This document shows positions 1,747 through 40,086 of a DNA stretch of 41,940 nucleotides, piece by piece. Each line of letters begins with the position of its first letter. Positions within the stretch are counted from its first letter, which is position 1. Source of the DNA: a virus; the IMG/VR virus record IMGVR_UViG_3300019758_000012, positions 1 through 41,940 of that record. One strand, written 5' to 3'. Made by a program: the position numbers and the translations under genes. The notes under the pieces are model-generated. The model had not been told where the DNA came from and did not search any database. It saw only the letters and a program-made list of their open reading frames with translations.

Positions 1747-2328
1747 ATGGCATATACTAAAGAGCAATGGGAAAAGGCTAAGGCATATTATGAAGCTGGA
1801 TTATCTCTTTCTAAGATAAAAGATAAGACTGGAATAGCAAGAAATACAATATCTCAAAGAGCAAAAAGGGAACAATGGGAACAGGGTAAGAATTCCGATT
1901 ATATCGAAACTAAAGTAAAATTAATGGAACAGAAAGGAACAGTTTTGGAACAGTCTGGAACAGTTGCTTTGACTATTGCTGATGATATTGCAGATGAAAA
2001 AATAAGAAGAAGAAACTTAGTGTTAGGTAATGCTGAATTATTAGCAAGTAAAGTACCTAGTATTGTAGAATCTTACACGGTAGAACAAGAAGATAAAGAG
2101 ACGGGCAAAGTCAAAAAGATTTTCACTATGCCAGCTAAGGAATTAAAAGAACTTGCAGAGGCTAATGACAAGATAGGGGTTACTTTAGAAGTAGCACCAA
2201 GACACGCCAATAGTCAAATTAATATACAGAATACAAACGCACAACAAACTAACGCTAACCTCAACATAGAAGATATGACACAAAAAGAAATATCAGATAC
2301 TTACCTGGATATGATTAAAAAGAAATGA
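1747..2328 (+). CDS. terS: Terminase small subunit
   Basis: 193 aa. This is the DNA-recognition subunit of the packaging motor. The N-terminal 45 residues form a helix-turn-helix of the kind found in phage small terminases (YxxGLSLxxIxxxTGIxxxTIxxxA). A long helical central region for oligomerisation follows, then a Gln/Asn-rich linker and a C-terminal helix likely to contact TerL. The last codons overlap the ATG of the large subunit (ATGA at 2325), a typical coupled pair. The gene contains helically phased GGAACAG repeats (see findings) that may be the pac site. Function follows from the HTH and position; the family is diverse. Confidence 0.85.
   Translation: MAYTKEQWEKAKAYYEAGLSLSKIKDKTGIARNTISQRAKREQWEQGKNSDYIETKVKLMEQKGTVLEQSGTVALTIADDIADEKIRRRNLVLGNAELLASKVPSIVESYTVEQEDKETGKVKKIFTMPAKELKELAEANDKIGVTLEVAPRHANSQINIQNTNAQQTNANLNIEDMTQKEISDTYLDMIKKK
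1878..1963 (+). repeat. GGAACAG direct repeats inside terS (candidate pac site)
   Basis: GGAACAG occurs at 1878, 1926, 1936, 1947 and 1957, and a variant GGAACAA begins at 1869. The last four are spaced 10, 11 and 10 bp apart, so all face the same side of the helix. They encode a repeated EQ..GTV peptide. pac sites commonly lie in small terminase genes; the assignment here is inference. Confidence 0.5.
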
Positions 2329-3764
2329 CATTTAAAGAAAGATTTGAAGCTCTACAAGAGATAAATAAATCAGAACATAATAGGCAAGTAGCTAAAGCAT
2401 ATTACAAAGATAAGCCTATTGACTTTATTAACGATTGGGTTGTAACTTTTGACCCAAGACTAAAAGAGAATAAATTTGTACCGTTTATACTATTTCCTAG
2501 ACAAGAAGAATTTATACAGTTTATAGAAGATAGATACACTAATAATGAAAATGGTATTTGTGAAAAATCAAGGGATAGTGGTATGTCATGGTTAGCTATG
2601 GCGTGGAGTATTCATAAATGGCTATATGAAGATGGTTTTAGTGCAGGCTTTGGTTCAAGGAAAGCAGACTTTGTTGATAAGATAGGTAATCCTTCATCTA
2701 TCTTTGAAAAAGGGCGAATGTTGTTGAGGTATTTACCAGACTTCTTTTTGCCTAAAGGTTTTAAAGAGCAAGACCATTTAACCTACATGAGATTTATTAA
2801 CCCTGAAAACGGAGCAACAATCACGGGAGAGAGTGGAGATAATATCGGTAGGGGTGGTAGAACTTCAATATACTTTAAAGATGAATCAGCCTTTTATGAG
2901 AGGCCAGAACTAATTGAAGCTTCACTTGTAGCAAATACAGACGTGCAAATTGATATATCAACTCCTAATGGTAGTGGTAATCCATTCCATCAAAAAATTG
3001 TAGCAGGTAATGTGCCTAAATTTACTTTTCATTGGACTGATGATCCTAGAAAAAATGAAGATTGGAAACAGAAGAAAATTAAAGAAGTTGGAGACATCAT
3101 CTTTGCACAAGAGTACGACATTGATTATGATGCTTCACTTCCTAATATTTGTATTCCTGCTAAGTATATAAGAAAATGTGTTAATACTGATATTGAAGAT
3201 GACGGAATGATTATTGCAGGACTTGATGTTGCAGATGATGGGAACGATAAAAACGCACTAGCAATTAGAAAAGGAAATAAGCTATTTTATATAGATGAGT
3301 GGAGTGGCTTAGATGTAGGCCAAACAACTATGAAAGCACTTGAAATATGCAAAGAGCATAATGTAGAGATACTTAATTATGATAGTATCGGAGTTGGTGC
3401 AGGGGTTAAATCAACTCTTAATATGGTTGGTACTGATGGGATAGAATGCAACGCTGTATCAGTTGCAGAGAGTCCAACAAATGGAAACTATGGAGAGAAA
3501 ACTAACAAAGACACATTTATTAATCTACGGGCTGAACTATGGTGGAAAATGCGAGATAGATTCAAGAATGAAAACATATCTATATTAAGTGATAATGGAC
3601 TCATATCAGAATTATCTCAACCTTTATACTTCTTTAATGAAAAAGGAAAGATACAGATTGAGAGTAAAAAAGATATGAGAAAAAGAGGGATTAAATCGCC
3701 AAATAAAGCTGATGCTGTATTATTAGCTTTCCACGAAGTGGAGTATAACTCATTCTTTGCATAG
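2325..3764 (+). CDS. terL: Terminase large subunit (ATPase and nuclease)
   Basis: 479 aa, normal length for the family. An atypical Walker A (EKSRDSGMSW, about residues 80-89) is followed by a Walker B (SIYFKDES, 181-188) with the catalytic Glu/Ser edge and an ISTPNG coupling motif (211-216). The C-terminal RNase H-like nuclease begins at GLDVADDG (about 299-306, Asp301 a metal ligand) and ends with a KADAVLLAF motif near residue 465. It translocates DNA into the prohead and cuts it. Coupled to terS by a 4-base overlap. Confidence 0.95.
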   Translation: MTFKERFEALQEINKSEHNRQVAKAYYKDKPIDFINDWVVTFDPRLKENKFVPFILFPRQEEFIQFIEDRYTNNENGICEKSRDSGMSWLAMAWSIHKWLYEDGFSAGFGSRKADFVDKIGNPSSIFEKGRMLLRYLPDFFLPKGFKEQDHLTYMRFINPENGATITGESGDNIGRGGRTSIYFKDESAFYERPELIEASLVANTDVQIDISTPNGSGNPFHQKIVAGNVPKFTFHWTDDPRKNEDWKQKKIKEVGDIIFAQEYDIDYDASLPNICIPAKYIRKCVNTDIEDDGMIIAGLDVADDGNDKNALAIRKGNKLFYIDEWSGLDVGQTTMKALEICKEHNVEILNYDSIGVGAGVKSTLNMVGTDGIECNAVSVAESPTNGNYGEKTNKDTFINLRAELWWKMRDRFKNENISILSDNGLISELSQPLYFFNEKGKIQIESKKDMRKRGIKSPNKADAVLLAFHEVEYNSFFA

Positions 3765-9834: not shown

Positions 9835-9904
9835 AAAAAGAGGGGAAAGGAAAACCCCTCTTAGAAGATTAGAAAAGAAAATGAAAGAGTATCCCCTAAG
9901 GGAC
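9834..9904 (-). ncRNA. Candidate small RNA, about 70 nt
   Basis: Minus strand. A strong promoter (9911-9939) is followed by about 70 nt ending in an intrinsic terminator: stem AAGAGGGG/CCCCTCTT (9839-9846 with 9855-9862, 8 bp) followed by a T run. The 5' end has a small CCC/GGG hairpin, and the middle is an unpaired pyrimidine stretch complementary to AAGAAAATG-type translation starts. There is no reading frame of note. Base-pairing target and function are inference. Confidence 0.6.
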
Positions 9905-9910
9905 AAAAAT

Positions 9911-9939
9911 ATTATACTTAAACATTAATTAAAATGCAA
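9911..9939 (-). promoter_or_regulatory. Promoter of candidate sRNA
   Basis: Minus strand: TTGCAT (9934-9939), 17 bp, TATAAT (9911-9916). A half-conserved box (GTAAC at 9976-9980) lies at about the standard distance upstream. Confidence 0.65.
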
Positions 9940-9965
9940 CAAAAATATATAAAATTGCAAATACC

Positions 9966-9995
9966 TTTACTTTTAGTAACACTTTTAGCTATAAT
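9966..9995 (+). promoter_or_regulatory. Late promoter before protease/scaffold gene
   Basis: TTTACT (9966-9971), 18 bp, TATAAT (9990-9995). Start codon at 10026 after ACAAAGGTTTTTA. Confidence 0.65.
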
Positions 9996-10025
9996 TGCTA
10001 TGTAAAAATTTTACAAAGGTTTTTA

Positions 10026-11144
10026 ATGCTAAATGTACTTGCAGATGATAACGGTTTCATTCCTGTTGAAGATAGACCTATAAGTAAAGTAGGAGTATTT
10101 CCTTACTTAGGTAGTTCAATTGGAGCTAGTGAGCCTAATCGTATATATATGGTTTATAGACCAGCTTCGGAACTTTCAAACAAAGAGACAATCAATTCTT
10201 TTAAACTTGTACCATTAATAGATGAACACGAAATGTTAGGAACTGACGCAACACCTGCTGAAAAGAAAGGTGTTCAAGGAACAACAGGAGAGAATATCTA
10301 TTTTAAAGATGGTGTACTTTATGGAAACATGAAAGTATATAGTGAAAGAATGAAAAATCTTATCGAGGGAGGAAAGAAGGAATTATCTTTAGGCTATAAA
10401 TGTAAGTATGTTTTTGAGAGTGGTAACTTTGAGGGTAAACAGTATGACGCAATTCAAACTAACCTTAGAGGAAATCATATCGCACTTGTAGAAGAGGGGC
10501 GAATGGGTAAAGAGGTGTCTGTTGTTGATGGTGCATTGAAAACCGTTGTAACAATGGATAGAAACGATATTAAACTTAAGGAGCAAGAAGTGGCTATTAC
10601 AAAAGAAGAAATGCAAGCTGTTCTAGATGAAGCTTTAAAGCCTATTGAAGATAGAGTTAATGCTTTAGATGAAGCAGTAAAGAAAAAAGCAGAAGATGTA
10701 GAAATCGAAATCAAAAAAGAAGAAGAAAAAAAAGATGAAGGTCAAGACGCAAAATCATACGATGAAATGAAAAAAGAATATGACGCTATGTGCAAAGACA
10801 TGGAAGAAATGAAAAAACAAATGGACGAAATGAAAAAAGATTCAAAAGGTCAAGATGAATCTATCAAAAAAACTGTTATGCAAGAATTAGCACAAAGAGA
10901 TAGACTAGCTTTAAAATTGACTCCATTAGTTGGAAGTTTCGACCATTTAGACATGGACTTAAACGGAGTAGTATCTTATGGAGTAGACAAATTAAAACTT
11001 GATGTTGTTGAAGGTCAAGAGTTAGCGACATTAAACGGATATTTAGCTGCTGCAAAAGTAGATACTAAATCGCAAGGTATGGACTCTAAAAAAGAGTTTA
11101 AAACAAATAAAATTTCTACATCATTAGATGTATTCAATTCGTAA
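10026..11144 (+). CDS. Prohead protease (DUF2213) fused to scaffold
   Basis: 372 aa. Residues 1-170 form a DUF2213-type maturation protease with the likely catalytic Ser121 in KELSLGY and His151 in RGNHIALVEEGR. Residues about 185-300 are Lys/Glu-rich coiled coil typical of scaffolds, and the last about 70 residues probably bind capsid protein. In other phages such proteins guide shell assembly and then cleave themselves and other head proteins. An in-frame GTG at 10590 with a perfect AAGGAG six bases ahead could produce a scaffold-only form of 184 aa. Head of the capsid operon. Confidence 0.85.
   Translation: MLNVLADDNGFIPVEDRPISKVGVFPYLGSSIGASEPNRIYMVYRPASELSNKETINSFKLVPLIDEHEMLGTDATPAEKKGVQGTTGENIYFKDGVLYGNMKVYSERMKNLIEGGKKELSLGYKCKYVFESGNFEGKQYDAIQTNLRGNHIALVEEGRMGKEVSVVDGALKTVVTMDRNDIKLKEQEVAITKEEMQAVLDEALKPIEDRVNALDEAVKKKAEDVEIEIKKEEEKKDEGQDAKSYDEMKKEYDAMCKDMEEMKKQMDEMKKDSKGQDESIKKTVMQELAQRDRLALKLTPLVGSFDHLDMDLNGVVSYGVDKLKLDVVEGQELATLNGYLAAAKVDTKSQGMDSKKEFKTNKISTSLDVFNS
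10590..11144 (+). CDS. Nested scaffold protein, internal in-frame start (predicted)
   Basis: AAGGAG at 10578-10583, spacer CAAGAA, GTG at 10590, in the frame of the 372-aa protein at residue 189, just where the protease domain ends and the coiled coil begins. The product would be a 184-aa free scaffold as in lambda C/Nu3. AAGGAG inside a coding region could also be chance, but the spacing and domain boundary argue against that. Confidence 0.55.
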   Translation: MAITKEEMQAVLDEALKPIEDRVNALDEAVKKKAEDVEIEIKKEEEKKDEGQDAKSYDEMKKEYDAMCKDMEEMKKQMDEMKKDSKGQDESIKKTVMQELAQRDRLALKLTPLVGSFDHLDMDLNGVVSYGVDKLKLDVVEGQELATLNGYLAAAKVDTKSQGMDSKKEFKTNKISTSLDVFNS

Positions 11145-16436: not shown

Positions 16437-16475
16437 TCAAAAAAGGGGCATACTTATTTAGTATGTCCTTTTTTA
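16437..16475. terminator. Bidirectional terminator after sheath gene
   Basis: An A run, then a GGGGCATACT / AGTATGTCC stem with loop TATTT, then a T run. Looks functional on both strands. Confidence 0.8.
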
Positions 16476-17107
16476 TTGTCTAGTAAATATTTTTCTCTGG
16501 CAATATGAGCTTCCTTTGGGCAATCAAATAGCCCTAGACTAATTCTTTTATTATTTCGCTGCACTCTTGCTCGGAATTTATCCCCTGCTTTTGTCACTCC
16601 TTTATAGTTAGTAGTATTATTCTTATATATTCTTTTATTTGAAGCATTTATAAATGAAGTGGTCCATCTACAATTAGAAGGCTCGTAGTTTCCGTCATTA
16701 TTTATTCTGTCTATTTCCAATCTTTCTCTATATCCATTAGACATAGCCCAATTATAAAATGCCATAAAGTCACTTTCCCAATCATCACAGATTGTTATCC
16801 CTCTTGCACCGTAATTTATATATGATTTATCATTTGGGTTTAGACATCGTTGTTTTATTGAGCACCAAACTCCATATATTTTAGTTTTAGACAGATTATG
16901 CTTTGAGCATCCGCAACTAGTTTTTTCTTTATTTTTTACGGTCCATATTTTAGATTCAAATATTTTCCCACAAAAACATTTGAATAGTGCAAATCTTTCT
17001 TTATATTTTGAATCTGTATTTTTGAATTTCATACCTAAATCTTTAATTATATCAAAGTCGTAATCATCTTGATTTAGTGGTTTTAGTTTTCTTTTAGTAG
17101 TTTCCAT
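16454..17107 (-). CDS. HNH homing endonuclease with AP2 DNA-binding domain
   Basis: 217 aa from the ATG at 17107, chosen because AAGGAT lies just upstream; a longer form from a GTG at 17170 would read through a hairpin. Order: Cys pairs (CFC, CGC) of a zinc site at about residues 40-70, an HNH core with YGARGITIC..W, EIDRINNDGNYEPSNCRW and N..NKR, then an AP2-like domain (NYKGVTKAGDKFRARV...ISLGLF). Free-standing homing endonucleases of this type cut phage genomes lacking them and spread by repair. It is inserted in reverse between sheath and tube genes and lacks the GTAAC box, so it differs from the accessory cassettes. Confidence 0.85.
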   Translation of the reverse strand: METTKRKLKPLNQDDYDFDIIKDLGMKFKNTDSKYKERFALFKCFCGKIFESKIWTVKNKEKTSCGCSKHNLSKTKIYGVWCSIKQRCLNPNDKSYINYGARGITICDDWESDFMAFYNWAMSNGYRERLEIDRINNDGNYEPSNCRWTTSFINASNKRIYKNNTTNYKGVTKAGDKFRARVQRNNKRISLGLFDCPKEAHIAREKYLLDNKKGHTK

Positions 17108-17130
17108 ATAGTTATCCTTGTGTTCATTTT

Positions 17131-17170
17131 GTGTTCTTATGGAATGGGGGTTAATTACTCCCCCGAACAC
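17131..17170 (-). promoter_or_regulatory. 5'-terminal stem-loop of the homing endonuclease mRNA
   Basis: GTGTTC (17165-17170, minus) pairs with GAACAC (17131-17136) and inside it GGGGG pairs with CCCCC (17160-17164 with 17146-17150). With the -10 at 17177-17182 the transcript would begin with this stem. Confidence 0.55.
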
Positions 17171-17692: not shown

Positions 17693-17722
17693 AATAGGGG
17701 AGTTTCTACTTCTCTATTTTTA
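17693..17722 (+). terminator. Terminator after tail tube gene
   Basis: AATAGGGGAG pairs with CTTCTCTATT (some G-U pairs), then TTTTT. The hairpin also overlaps the convergent YopX gene end. Confidence 0.65.
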
Positions 17723-18125
17723 ACAGCTCTGGGTTTTCGTAAATGTTTCCTATTACTTCCAAACTATTTGGTATCCATAGCATTTGCCTATCATTAGGAA
17801 TGGCATCATTTTTTATATGAAAATAACCACTATCAAACACAACCTCCGATTTTAATTCTTGAACATTTTTTCCAAATCTAGTGTCTAATTCAATAAAATA
17901 GCCGTTTTCTCTTACATCTCCAAAGTATTTAACAATATCCCCTTCATAAATTTCAACACGATTTTTATCCTTAAGACCTGTGTATTGTCTCCTAGCAACA
18001 ACAGTATATAGACCTAAATTCAAAGGCATTACATTTTCTTCAATTCCTAGTATGTCAGTAGCTTGTCTATATATTCTGCCGTCACTTATCATCTTTATGA
18101 TGTATTCAAACTTGATTTCTCTCAC
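17706..18125 (-). CDS. YopX family protein (inverted cassette)
   Basis: 139 aa from the second GTG (18125), which aligns with the ATG of the paralogue at 31282 (both leaders read AAAGGATAAGTG-RTGAGAGAAAT). The YopX signature RQYTGLKDKNRVEIYEGDIV is at about residues 48-67, and the family-typical end LEVIGNIYENPELL is present. The role of YopX proteins in phages is unknown. It sits reversed between tube and chaperone genes with a boxed promoter, consistent with an early accessory gene. Confidence 0.85.
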   Translation of the reverse strand: MREIKFEYIIKMISDGRIYRQATDILGIEENVMPLNLGLYTVVARRQYTGLKDKNRVEIYEGDIVKYFGDVRENGYFIELDTRFGKNVQELKSEVVFDSGYFHIKNDAIPNDRQMLWIPNSLEVIGNIYENPELLKIEK

Positions 18126-18147
18126 CACTTATCCTTTTTTTTATTTA

Positions 18148-33255: not shown

Positions 33256-33622
33256 TCACACAATACAAAGACATCACATAGAGACTCTTATACTAATAAG
33301 CTTTTTAAATCAAGATAAGAGCAATGAAATAGACCAAATGGAGTTTAGAGAGTATAGACTACCTTTTGAACTATTTAAGGCGAATAAGACATATAAGCTT
33401 GTCGCTAAAGCTATAAGAAACTTACAAGATGAAAACAAACCGATTGATGAGGTAACAGTAATTAGTTACATTACGAAACATATTGAAATAAATCAGCATG
33501 AATACTTAGAGCTTTTATCTCATGTTGGTTGTACTTTTGATACTATGATTTTATATCTTGATTATTTAAGAGAGATAGACGAAGAAGAAAAGAAAAGAGA
33601 ATTGTTAAGGAGTGTGATTTGA
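33245..33622 (+). CDS. DnaB-type helicase N-terminal domain, separate gene
   Basis: 125 aa. Resembles the helical N-terminal domain of DnaB: HIETLILISFLNQDKS, LPFELFKANKTYKLVAKAIRNLQDENKPIDEVTVISYI and EYLELLSHVG. The protein ends after this domain, and the ATPase part is encoded by another gene 1 kb further on (34682-35587), with a methyltransferase between. Coupled to the initiator by an 11-base overlap. Confidence 0.7.
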   Translation: MNTNHTIQRHHIETLILISFLNQDKSNEIDQMEFREYRLPFELFKANKTYKLVAKAIRNLQDENKPIDEVTVISYITKHIEINQHEYLELLSHVGCTFDTMILYLDYLREIDEEEKKRELLRSVI

Positions 33623-34680
33623 ATTTTACCTACAAATGGAATTTAAAAGATTTAGAAAAAGTTAAGCCAAATGGCTATAAAGTGTTTAGTTGTTTTGCAG
33701 GCGGTGGAGGTAGTAGCCAAGGCTACAAAATGGCTGGATATGAAGTTATAGGGTGTAATGAAATTGACCCACGACAAATGGAAATATACAAGCATAATTT
33801 AAAACCTAAATACAGTTATTTAGAAGACATTAGAACATTTAGGCTTAGAGAAGATTTACCTAAAGAATTGTTTGAATTAGATATTTTAGATGCTTCATTT
33901 CCTTGTAGCTTATTTTCAACTGCTAATTTAAAAGCAGATGATAAAAAAGGCAAAGAAGTTAAATTTAGAGAGGGTCAATCAAAACAGACACTTGATGACT
34001 TAGCTTTTGAAACAATAAAGTTAGTTGATAAAATCAAACCTAAAATATGTGTTTTTGAAAATGTAAAGGGATTACTACAAGAAAAAAATAAATGGTATGT
34101 TGAGCAAATATATTCTCAATTTGATAAAATAGGATACAGAATTTGCCATCATTTAATTAATTGTGCAGACTTAGGAGTTCCGCAAAAAAGGCAAAGAGTT
34201 TTTTTCTTTGCTGTTAGAAATGACATTAATGTACCTACTGCGGATATCTTCGGGTGTGAGCCTTATTTAAATTTGGATATTAAAGAGAAACATATTACTT
34301 TAGGCATGATAGATAAAGACAATAAAGGAAAGAAACCGACTCAATTTACATTGGATATGCTAAAGCATTATAAAAAAGGAGATAGCAGCCTTGGAGATAT
34401 TAGACAAAGATTAGAAAATAAATCAACAGGCTTTCAAACTTATATAGTGACTAATAGTGATATATGTAACACATTAAGGGCAGGAAGTAATGATTTTATA
34501 CAAATAGATGAAAACAATAAAAACTTATCAGACTATGAGCTTTTACAGATTGGTAGTTGGTCACAAGATTATGACTTCAAATCTCAAAAAGTTATTTATG
34601 TTTTAGGAATGAGTGTTCCACCTTTAGCAATGTATAGAATATCTAAAGAAATAGAAAAACAATGGTTAAATAGGGCTTAA
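33619..34680 (+). CDS. DNA cytosine-5 methyltransferase
   Basis: 353 aa, TTG start with AAGGAG six bases upstream, overlapping the previous TGA. Motif I FAGGGGSSQG (26-35, AdoMet binding), motif IV with catalytic Cys96 (SFPCS), motif VI ENV (147-149), motif VIII QKRQRVFFF, and motif X VLGMSVPPLAMYRIS are all present. No restriction partner nearby; probably protects phage DNA from host restriction or acts on phage gene control. Target sequence cannot be predicted here. It splits the helicase pair. Confidence 0.95.
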   Translation: MNFTYKWNLKDLEKVKPNGYKVFSCFAGGGGSSQGYKMAGYEVIGCNEIDPRQMEIYKHNLKPKYSYLEDIRTFRLREDLPKELFELDILDASFPCSLFSTANLKADDKKGKEVKFREGQSKQTLDDLAFETIKLVDKIKPKICVFENVKGLLQEKNKWYVEQIYSQFDKIGYRICHHLINCADLGVPQKRQRVFFFAVRNDINVPTADIFGCEPYLNLDIKEKHITLGMIDKDNKGKKPTQFTLDMLKHYKKGDSSLGDIRQRLENKSTGFQTYIVTNSDICNTLRAGSNDFIQIDENNKNLSDYELLQIGSWSQDYDFKSQKVIYVLGMSVPPLAMYRISKEIEKQWLNRA

Positions 34681-36848: not shown

Positions 36849-37424
36849 ATGTTTACAAAAGAGCAACAACTTAGCAAAAAGAAAAAGCCAAGAAAAAAGA
36901 AATGCAAAAACTGTAATGATTGGTTTACACCTGAAAGAGAAATGCAGACAACTTGCGGCATACCTTGCGCTATTGCTTACGCTAATAAAGATAATGTTAA
37001 ACAAAAAGAAATTAACAAGCAAAAGAGAGAGTTTAGACAAAGTGACAAAACTATTTTAAAAGAAAAAGTTCAAAAGTTAGCCAATAAATATGGAAGGCTA
37101 AGAGAATTTTCAAGAGGCAACGTTTTTTGTGTGACTTGCGGTGCTAAAAATGTAAAATTTGATGGGGGGCATTTTCTACCAACATCAACATATCCATCTA
37201 TAAGATATTATACTTTACAAATAAATCCACAATGTGTAAATTGCAATCAATATAATGGGGGAAAGCCTAAAGAGTATAGAGAATATATGATTAAAAGATT
37301 TGGATTAAAAAAAGTTGAAGATTTAGAAGCGCAACACAGAGTAAGTAGAAAATATACTGTTGAATATTACCAAAAATATTTAAGAGTTATGAGCAAGAGA
37401 CTTAAAAAATACAACTCAATATAA
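36849..37424 (+). CDS. NinG/Rap-like recombination endonuclease
   Basis: 191 aa. N-terminal Lys-rich region with Cys pairs (CKNC, CGIPC), then FCVTCGAKNVKFDGGHFLPTSTYPSIRYYTLQINPQCVNCNQYNGGKPKEY, the metal-binding core of lambda NinG/Rap, and a basic helical end. NinG acts on recombination intermediates (Holliday junctions) and helps RecA-independent recombination. Last gene of the operon from 35741. The function fits the annealase encoded just downstream. Confidence 0.9.
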   Translation: MFTKEQQLSKKKKPRKKKCKNCNDWFTPEREMQTTCGIPCAIAYANKDNVKQKEINKQKREFRQSDKTILKEKVQKLANKYGRLREFSRGNVFCVTCGAKNVKFDGGHFLPTSTYPSIRYYTLQINPQCVNCNQYNGGKPKEYREYMIKRFGLKKVEDLEAQHRVSRKYTVEYYQKYLRVMSKRLKKYNSI

Positions 37425-37824: not shown

Positions 37825-38412
37825 ATGAAAACAAGTGAAAAAATAAACGAACTAAGTTCAAGTTTAATACAGTTGCAATCAGAATTAAACAACATAGGTA
37901 AAGACTCTAAGGGTTATGGTTATAACTATACATCACTAGAAAAGCTTTTAGATTATGTAAGACCTTTAATGTCTAAGCATAATTTAGGCGTAATTCAAAC
38001 CCCAACAAATATTGATAATAGAATTGGTGTAACTACTAGATTGATTCATAAGTCAGGGCAATTTATAGAAGATACTCTACTTATGGATAAATCTAATTTA
38101 GCAAAAATGAATGATTATCAAGTAGCAGGAAGTATAATTACATATTTTAGAAGATATGCAGTTAGTTCAATTTTAGGAATAGCAAGTGATGAGGATACAG
38201 ATGTAAACATTCCAAAAGAGCAACCACAAGTGCAACAACCAGTATTAATTAATGAAGGTCAAGTTATGAGCCTTGAAGGTTTAATCCAGAAATCAGGAGC
38301 AGATAGAGAGAAGTTTTTAAACGCTTACAAACTAAACAGATTAGAGGATATGCCTATAAACTTATTTGAGAACGCCCTAAAAGCTTTAAATAAAAAATTA
38401 GAGGGAAAGTAA
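37825..38412 (+). CDS. Single-strand annealing recombinase, ERF family
   Basis: 195 aa. ERF pattern: KINELSSSLIQLQSELNNI.KDSKGYGYNYTSLEKLLDYVRPLMSKHNLGVIQ, then GVTTRLIHKSGQFIED and YQVAGSIITYFRRYAVSSILGIASDEDTD. Such proteins anneal complementary single strands and help concatemer formation and repair. The C-terminus is helical with an oligomerisation-like end. AAAGGAAAAGTAA is upstream. Works with SSB and NinG encoded nearby. Confidence 0.9.
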   Translation: MKTSEKINELSSSLIQLQSELNNIGKDSKGYGYNYTSLEKLLDYVRPLMSKHNLGVIQTPTNIDNRIGVTTRLIHKSGQFIEDTLLMDKSNLAKMNDYQVAGSIITYFRRYAVSSILGIASDEDTDVNIPKEQPQVQQPVLINEGQVMSLEGLIQKSGADREKFLNAYKLNRLEDMPINLFENALKALNKKLEGK

Positions 38413-39606: not shown

Positions 39607-40086
39607 ATGTATAATGAATTAACGGTACTAGGAAATTTAACAAGAGATATTGAGCTGAGATATACGCCTAACGGTTCAGCACTAGCAAAAGGAGCAATTG
39701 CTACAAGTCACAAATACAAAACACAATCAGGCGAACAAAAAGAAGAAGTTTGTTTTTTAGATTTCAGTATTTTTGGAAAAAGTGCAGAAGTTGCTAATCA
39801 GTATTTAAAAAAAGGCTCTAAAGTTTTACTAGTTGGTAGATTAGTATTTGAACAATGGACTACGCAATCAGGAGAAAACAGAAGTAAGCACTCTTTAAGA
39901 GTAGATACTATGAAAATGTTAGACAACAAACAAGATAACCAATCTAACAATTATCAACCACAAGTGCAACAAAGCCAATACACACAGCCAGTACAAAACC
40001 AACAAGGGGCATATCCTGCAATAGATATTGATGATTCAGAAATACCATTTAATAAGATTAATAAAACTTTATCAATGGTGATTTAG
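39607..40086 (+). CDS. ssb: Single-stranded DNA-binding protein
   Basis: 159 aa. OB fold with YNELTVLGNLTRDIELRYTPNGSALAKGAIATSHKYK, CFLDFSIFGKSAEVANQYLKKGSKVLLVGRL, then a Gln/Asn-rich linker. The acidic tip DIDDSEIPF is present but is followed by 11 further residues (NKINKTLSMVI), whereas host SSBs end at IPF. Protects ssDNA during replication and recombination. Stop is followed by the DUF3310 gene. Confidence 0.95.
   Translation: MYNELTVLGNLTRDIELRYTPNGSALAKGAIATSHKYKTQSGEQKEEVCFLDFSIFGKSAEVANQYLKKGSKVLLVGRLVFEQWTTQSGENRSKHSLRVDTMKMLDNKQDNQSNNYQPQVQQSQYTQPVQNQQGAYPAIDIDDSEIPFNKINKTLSMVI

Follow-up and report, generated by a model that had tools for sequence, protein, structure and literature searches.

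The repeat array in the small terminase gene (terS) of the window, the whole stretch of viral DNA that was analysed (a virus record of 41,940 bases), is probably a pac-type packaging-initiation site embedded in the coding sequence. Comparison with related genes revealed constraint at the DNA level, helical spacing of the copies, and covariation of the repeated word with the recognition helix of TerS. The features referred to below are as follows.

1747–2328, + strand: terS, small terminase gene, 193 aa (open reading frame with an HTH and weak terminase-small-subunit PHROG matches; terL directly downstream)
1840–1872, + strand: codons of the presumed TerS recognition helix, residues 32–42 (AlphaFold2 helix 32–42; the word changes along with R32 and Q37)
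1869–1884, + strand: repeat cluster A, GGAACAA at 1869–1875 and GGAACAG at 1878–1884, 9 bp apart; kept in all GGAAC-class relatives
1903–1911, + strand: central element lying between clusters A and B, conserved as ATCGAA(G/A)CT and defined by synonymous constraint at residues 53–55; the window reads ATC GAA ACT
1926–1963, + strand: repeat cluster B, GGAACAG at 1926, 1936, 1947 and 1957, with spacings of 10, 11 and 10 in two codon phases
2325–3764, + strand: terL, terminase large subunit and predicted TerS partner (phrog_2, E = 7e-29; Sf6 gp2 and the 8dkr large terminase in the PDB)

Six word copies were found in the array, GGAACAG starting at 1878, 1926, 1936, 1947 and 1957 and GGAACAA at 1869, all on the + strand and with spacings of 9, 48, 10, 11 and 10. 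The original prediction had listed the GGAACAG copies, the variant at 1869 and the 10, 11, 10 spacing, and all of its coordinates were exact. The array spans approximately 95 bp, 120–217 nt inside terS, with cluster B mostly under the codons of residues 63–71 (1933–1959). In the 41,940 bp, GGAACAG has 8 exact copies compared with 2.6 expected, and five of the 8 fall within 86 bp. It is the only 7-mer reaching at least 4 copies per 100 bp anywhere in the 42-kb window. The densest 100 bp contained 5 copies, as opposed to at most 1 in 60 simulated sequences having the dinucleotide frequencies of the window. With the protein held fixed, 5 or more copies appeared in 4 of 20,000 synonymous-codon shuffles of the window terS (p = 2e-4).

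The placement of the repeats in a small terminase gene, also part of that prediction, agrees with the reading frame, its HTH, the PHROG matches and the adjoining terL. Portal, head maturation protease, sheath and baseplate genes follow downstream of terS–terL. The AlphaFold2 model of TerS (mean pLDDT 72) yielded HTH helices at residues 5–16, 21–28 and 32–42 and a long helix at 71–109. From this model, helix 32–42 was taken as the recognition helix. Residues 63–71 form a low-confidence linker, which is probably disordered. A Foldseek search with the model gave nothing significant (Sf6 TerS was an insignificant rank-2 match), and no TerS came up when the PDB was searched with a profile of the TerS alignment.

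Homologues of terS were taken from IMG/VR, one Campylobacter MAG, the whole genomes of the MAG's phylum and order, and H. pullorum prophages. In approximately 40 related genes, the repeats occupy the same two places, with cluster A immediately following the codons of the recognition helix and cluster B within the linker; the word differs by subfamily. The words in the window's class are GGAACA, GGAAA, TCAACA, TCACAA, GCAACA and ACAACA; TGAACA is also among the switched words of related terS genes. The words of a second class, whose N-terminal domain is different, are TGAAC, GTGAAT, GTGAAA, GTGGAC, GTTACC, GTAAGC, TGAGC, GACGA and GTTTCC; these words and their register were chosen by eye among the k-mers repeated most often, which makes individual assignments less certain. 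The original prediction had named the absence of the repeats from relatives with similar TerS as an argument against a packaging site. This proved misleading: TerS proteins that are 45–50% identical and lack GGAACAG have another word in these places, one that goes with the different recognition helix of these proteins.

The repeats were compared with control ORF windows. A 6-mer repeated at least 4 times in nt 97–300 was present in 19/44 terS genes and in 5/256 control windows (Fisher p = 7e-14), and one repeated in at least 2 codon phases in 19/44 and 1/256, respectively; the number of 6-mers common to regions A and B averaged 5.2 within a gene, compared with 1.6 (permutation p ≤ 5e-5) on pairing A with region B of a gene whose N-terminus was dissimilar and 1.7 (p = 8e-16) for the corresponding regions of control ORFs, all terS p-values overstating independence because the genes are kin. 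As judged from the sequences, the spacings within clusters follow the DNA helical repeat: 74 of the 86 spacings of up to 26 bp lay within 1.6 bp of n×10.5 (vector strength 0.68), a count made over related genes and without a null. The GACGA copies of one relative (L045), at 214, 225, 236 and 247, are exactly 11 bp apart. The distance between the clusters is variable, mostly 43–67 bp.

The distant members L015, L039 and L086 showed no clear word. The only TerS relatives from cultured phages were the H. pullorum prophages, approximately 29% identical and likewise without a clear word; with three more queries, tblastn returned nothing useful. For TW1, IFTN9, Magia, NF, 611R5 and Pam3, the nearest TerL homologues, the adjoining TerS proteins were of other types and no comparable array was seen. 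The region of Salmonella phage 9NA that was examined carries terL. In a bacterial genome (G101, contig C7, approximately 9849–10302), an apparently frameshifted or broken terS (L115/L124/L135/L151) is related to L113, and GGAAA-like words are visible in it.

The word proved to switch with the recognition helix. Genes with Q or E where the window has Q37 had a word starting with GG (14/14); those with K had TC (12/12) and those with R had GC or AC (2/2), which makes 28/28 genes. The helix of the window reads ARNTISQRAK, and that of L003, a TCAACA gene, GKSAISKMAK. The rules ISQ/ISE with GGAACA, ISK with TCAACA, LSRT with GCAACA and TIVK with TCACAA were written down beforehand; most, not all, of the helix/word rule preceded the retrieval of several test genes. 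Among the loci fetched later, L075, L076 and L081 (GGAAC) and L078, L079 and L083 (TCAACA) fitted the Q/E and K rules. L077, with R, has ACAACA, of which the second base is as in the noted R word and the first is not. L113, with E, has GGAAA in place of GGAAC, and Ile where the others have R or K at position 32. In the second class, GTGAAT is common to L145 and L147 (SPATINKLCK) and to L040 (SPATINKICK). A tree built from C-terminal columns contained 8 label changes; it gave 6 independent helix/word pairs in its best form and 1 on well-supported branches, and as it is weakly resolved, the phylogenetic support is moderate.

Because the word switches with the helix across relatives, terS very probably contains the binding site of its own protein. 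The window site lies within terS, and its recognition by TerS is deduced from this covariation. A recognition code appears reasonably likely, in which R32 and Q37 would specify bases of the hexamer, and the helix and its cognate site would form one exchangeable terS cassette. Read through such a code, the loss of R/K32 in L113 accompanies GGAAA instead of GGAAC. Our searches of open-licence PMC papers retrieved no report of word/helix switching of this kind.

A natural exchange was seen on comparing L030 (4001–4525) with L040 (2933–3448). The 137 nt upstream of the start are 96% identical and the C-terminal parts 95% identical; the first approximately 250 nt, comprising the HTH and the repeats, are unrelated, and the words are GCAACA and GTGAAT. 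L010 and L037 have a C-terminal stretch in common (87%) and differ in the N-terminal segment and in the word. Since each pair differs in helix and word at once, the two move together. If the code is true, packaging specificity would be swappable in a single recombination step and predictable from sequence, because the helix and its cognate site travel as one cassette in terS. The 3′ parts of terS in L010, L037 and L047 were also noted to run to a common ...GVGELYKAINE end, with pairwise DNA identities of 79–87% and different N-terminal HTH classes; these joins may be a further sign of modular exchange.

Among known systems, the nearest architecture is P1 pac, in which direct repeats of the hexamer TGATCA/G form two clusters (HEX4 and HEX3) inside pacA; the pac sequence also contains a cut site and an IHF site, and when the repeats were recoded synonymously, the titre of wild-type P1 dropped approximately 9-fold (PMC10028697). 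In the window and its relatives, the small-subunit gene likewise contains a short direct repeat arranged in two clusters. In contrast to P1, the word varies among subfamilies and changes with the recognition helix; the site also spans approximately 95 bp instead of 161 bp. The array is likened to P1 pac but not classed as P1 pac, as its words contain no GATC and are not Dam sites. The original prediction had drawn on pac sites of the P22 and SPP1 type, and the literature does place the P22 and SPP1/SF6 sites in or at terS, SPP1 pac having direct repeats (PMC9611059, PMC4737164). Unlike the array described here, the pac site of P22 consists of one asymmetric sequence of 22 bp. The SF6 DNA-binding domain shows little sequence specificity, and its binding is uncorrelated with the repeats (PMC9611059, PMC4737164), whereas the helix/word covariation found here predicts specific reading.

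Between the clusters, an island of synonymous constraint at residues 53–55 is common to genes with several different words. Its ATCGAA(G/A)CT sequence uses ATC in 19/22 genes (24% background, p = 1e-9), GAA in 22/22 and GCT in 15/22. This central element of the window is a candidate cut or bend site. In the mechanism that we infer, TerS oligomers would bind the array through the N-terminal HTH, each recognition helix reading one word of approximately 6 bp. Clusters A and B, with copies approximately one helical turn apart, would flank the ATCGAA element, and TerS seated on both would force the DNA in between into a bend or wrap, offering its central part to TerL. TerL would then make the first cut near this element, packaging would proceed, and it would continue by the headful mode, which is likely for the window phage. 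The original prediction took the array as the packaging start of a headful packager; a DNA-level TerS-binding site in terS is strongly supported by the comparison, and the headful part is a likely extrapolation, to be set beside the cohesive-end reading that follows.

According to this second reading, which we consider rather unlikely, the same TerS-binding repeats would act as a cosB-like site in a cohesive-end packager, TerL would nick a fixed cos nearby, and the virion ends would be constant. Strong specific TerS binding is found mainly in cos packagers (PMC9611059). In lambda, 21 and N15, the TerS recognition helices and the R sites of cosB diverge together and set packaging specificity (PMC4669245). 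This is the closest documented co-divergence, and the likeness to our family lies in it, an HTH recognition helix and short repeated sites changing jointly. However, cosB adjoins the nicking site cosN, and the complex cosB comprises an inverted R2, two further R sequences and a likely IHF site, whereas all six copies in the window are direct, lie inside terS and include no inverted R2. The contig ends also speak against a fixed cos. Terminal direct repeats of 112, 114 and 30 bp in the related contigs G414, G407 and G008 (L162–L163, L164–L165 and L156–L158, respectively) lie at three unrelated positions relative to terS, and the five long contigs examined had no fixed end in common near terS. 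The ends of these three contigs fit circular maps broken at random and support permuted genomes weakly, as replicating or ligated cos phages can assemble alike. The window contig has no terminal repeat. Furthermore, the PDB matches of TerL include gp2 of Sf6, a phage listed as headful (PMC9611059).

An HTH protein acting on repeats in its own gene would also yield helix/word covariation if the array were an autoregulatory operator, by which TerS would repress or pace late transcription, and had no packaging role. We hold this to be very unlikely, given that the site is located well inside the gene and that a packaging role of intragenic sites has been reported for P1 and P22.

With the packaging site as the preferred reading, we examined whether the repetition belongs to the DNA or to the protein. 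The original prediction had mentioned a protein-level alternative, in which EQ..GTV would be a structural linker repeat and the DNA repeats its by-product. The linker of the window reads EQKGTVLEQSGTV, and shuffles of single genes were significant in some genes only. They are often non-significant because the amino acids are held fixed; therefore, cross-gene tests were employed. Against this alternative, the relatives carry the same DNA word in other codon phases and over other amino acids. Across genes, GGAAC encodes EQ, GT, GN, RN, EL, ER and EH, since its copies occupy different codon phases. The window copies are in phases 2, 2, 2, 0, 2 and 0; the words of L083 (TCAACA) and L045 (GACGA) occur in all three phases, and those of many other relatives in two or three.

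Synonymous codons are constrained as well. In 14/14 genes, the third base of the codon preceding Glu42 is G (AGG or AAG; P ~1e-11, treating genes as independent), where in the background AGG makes up 9% of Arg codons and AAG makes up 30% of those for Lys. The codon of Gly64 is GGA before ACN in 11/11 cases and GGG before AAN in 3/3 (P ~1e-8, again treating genes as independent). Both choices keep GGAA intact. The conserved residues A2, G18, G29, S36 and D79, which lie outside the array, are encoded by various codons in these genes; their synonymous sites are thus not constrained. The significant shuffle of the window's own terS and the low confidence of the linker, probably a disordered part of the model, also count against a structural repeat. 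The codon phases, the fixed synonymous codons and the word switching contradict the protein repeat and rule it out as the sole cause; we regard this alternative as extremely improbable. Equally hard to credit is a functionless product of chance or of mutational tandem duplication: cluster B of the window consists of two imperfect copies of a 21-bp unit, so local duplication may have made part of it, but both clusters, A and B, reappear at corresponding places in the approximately 40 genes, the word being switched, and are enriched over the 256 control ORF windows.

The recognition of viral DNA by TerS has been described as unresolved after forty years, with TerS of pac phages showing little sequence specificity in vitro (PMC9611059, PMC4737164). 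The present family offers comparative evidence suggesting that TerS HTH domains read a defined, helically phased repeat word, and it supplies natural specificity variants and a natural cassette swap. If the packaging-site reading is true, packaging sites would be predictable for uncultured phages with TerS of this kind.

Other genes of the window were noted as well. A C-5 cytosine DNA methylase (PF00145, E = 2e-46) is encoded at 33619–34680, near a NinG/Rap-like endonuclease (36849–37424), an ERF recombinase (37825–38412) and an SSB (39607–40086). A YopX-domain protein (PF09643) is encoded at 17706–18128 on the − strand, opposite to the structural genes around it. In the tail region, an antisense ORF at 16454–17170 (− strand) had no Pfam match. 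Its counterpart in the related genome G002 is 54% identical and sits approximately +30.7 kb from terS, compared with +14.7 kb in the window; this different location relative to terS suggests a mobile gene.
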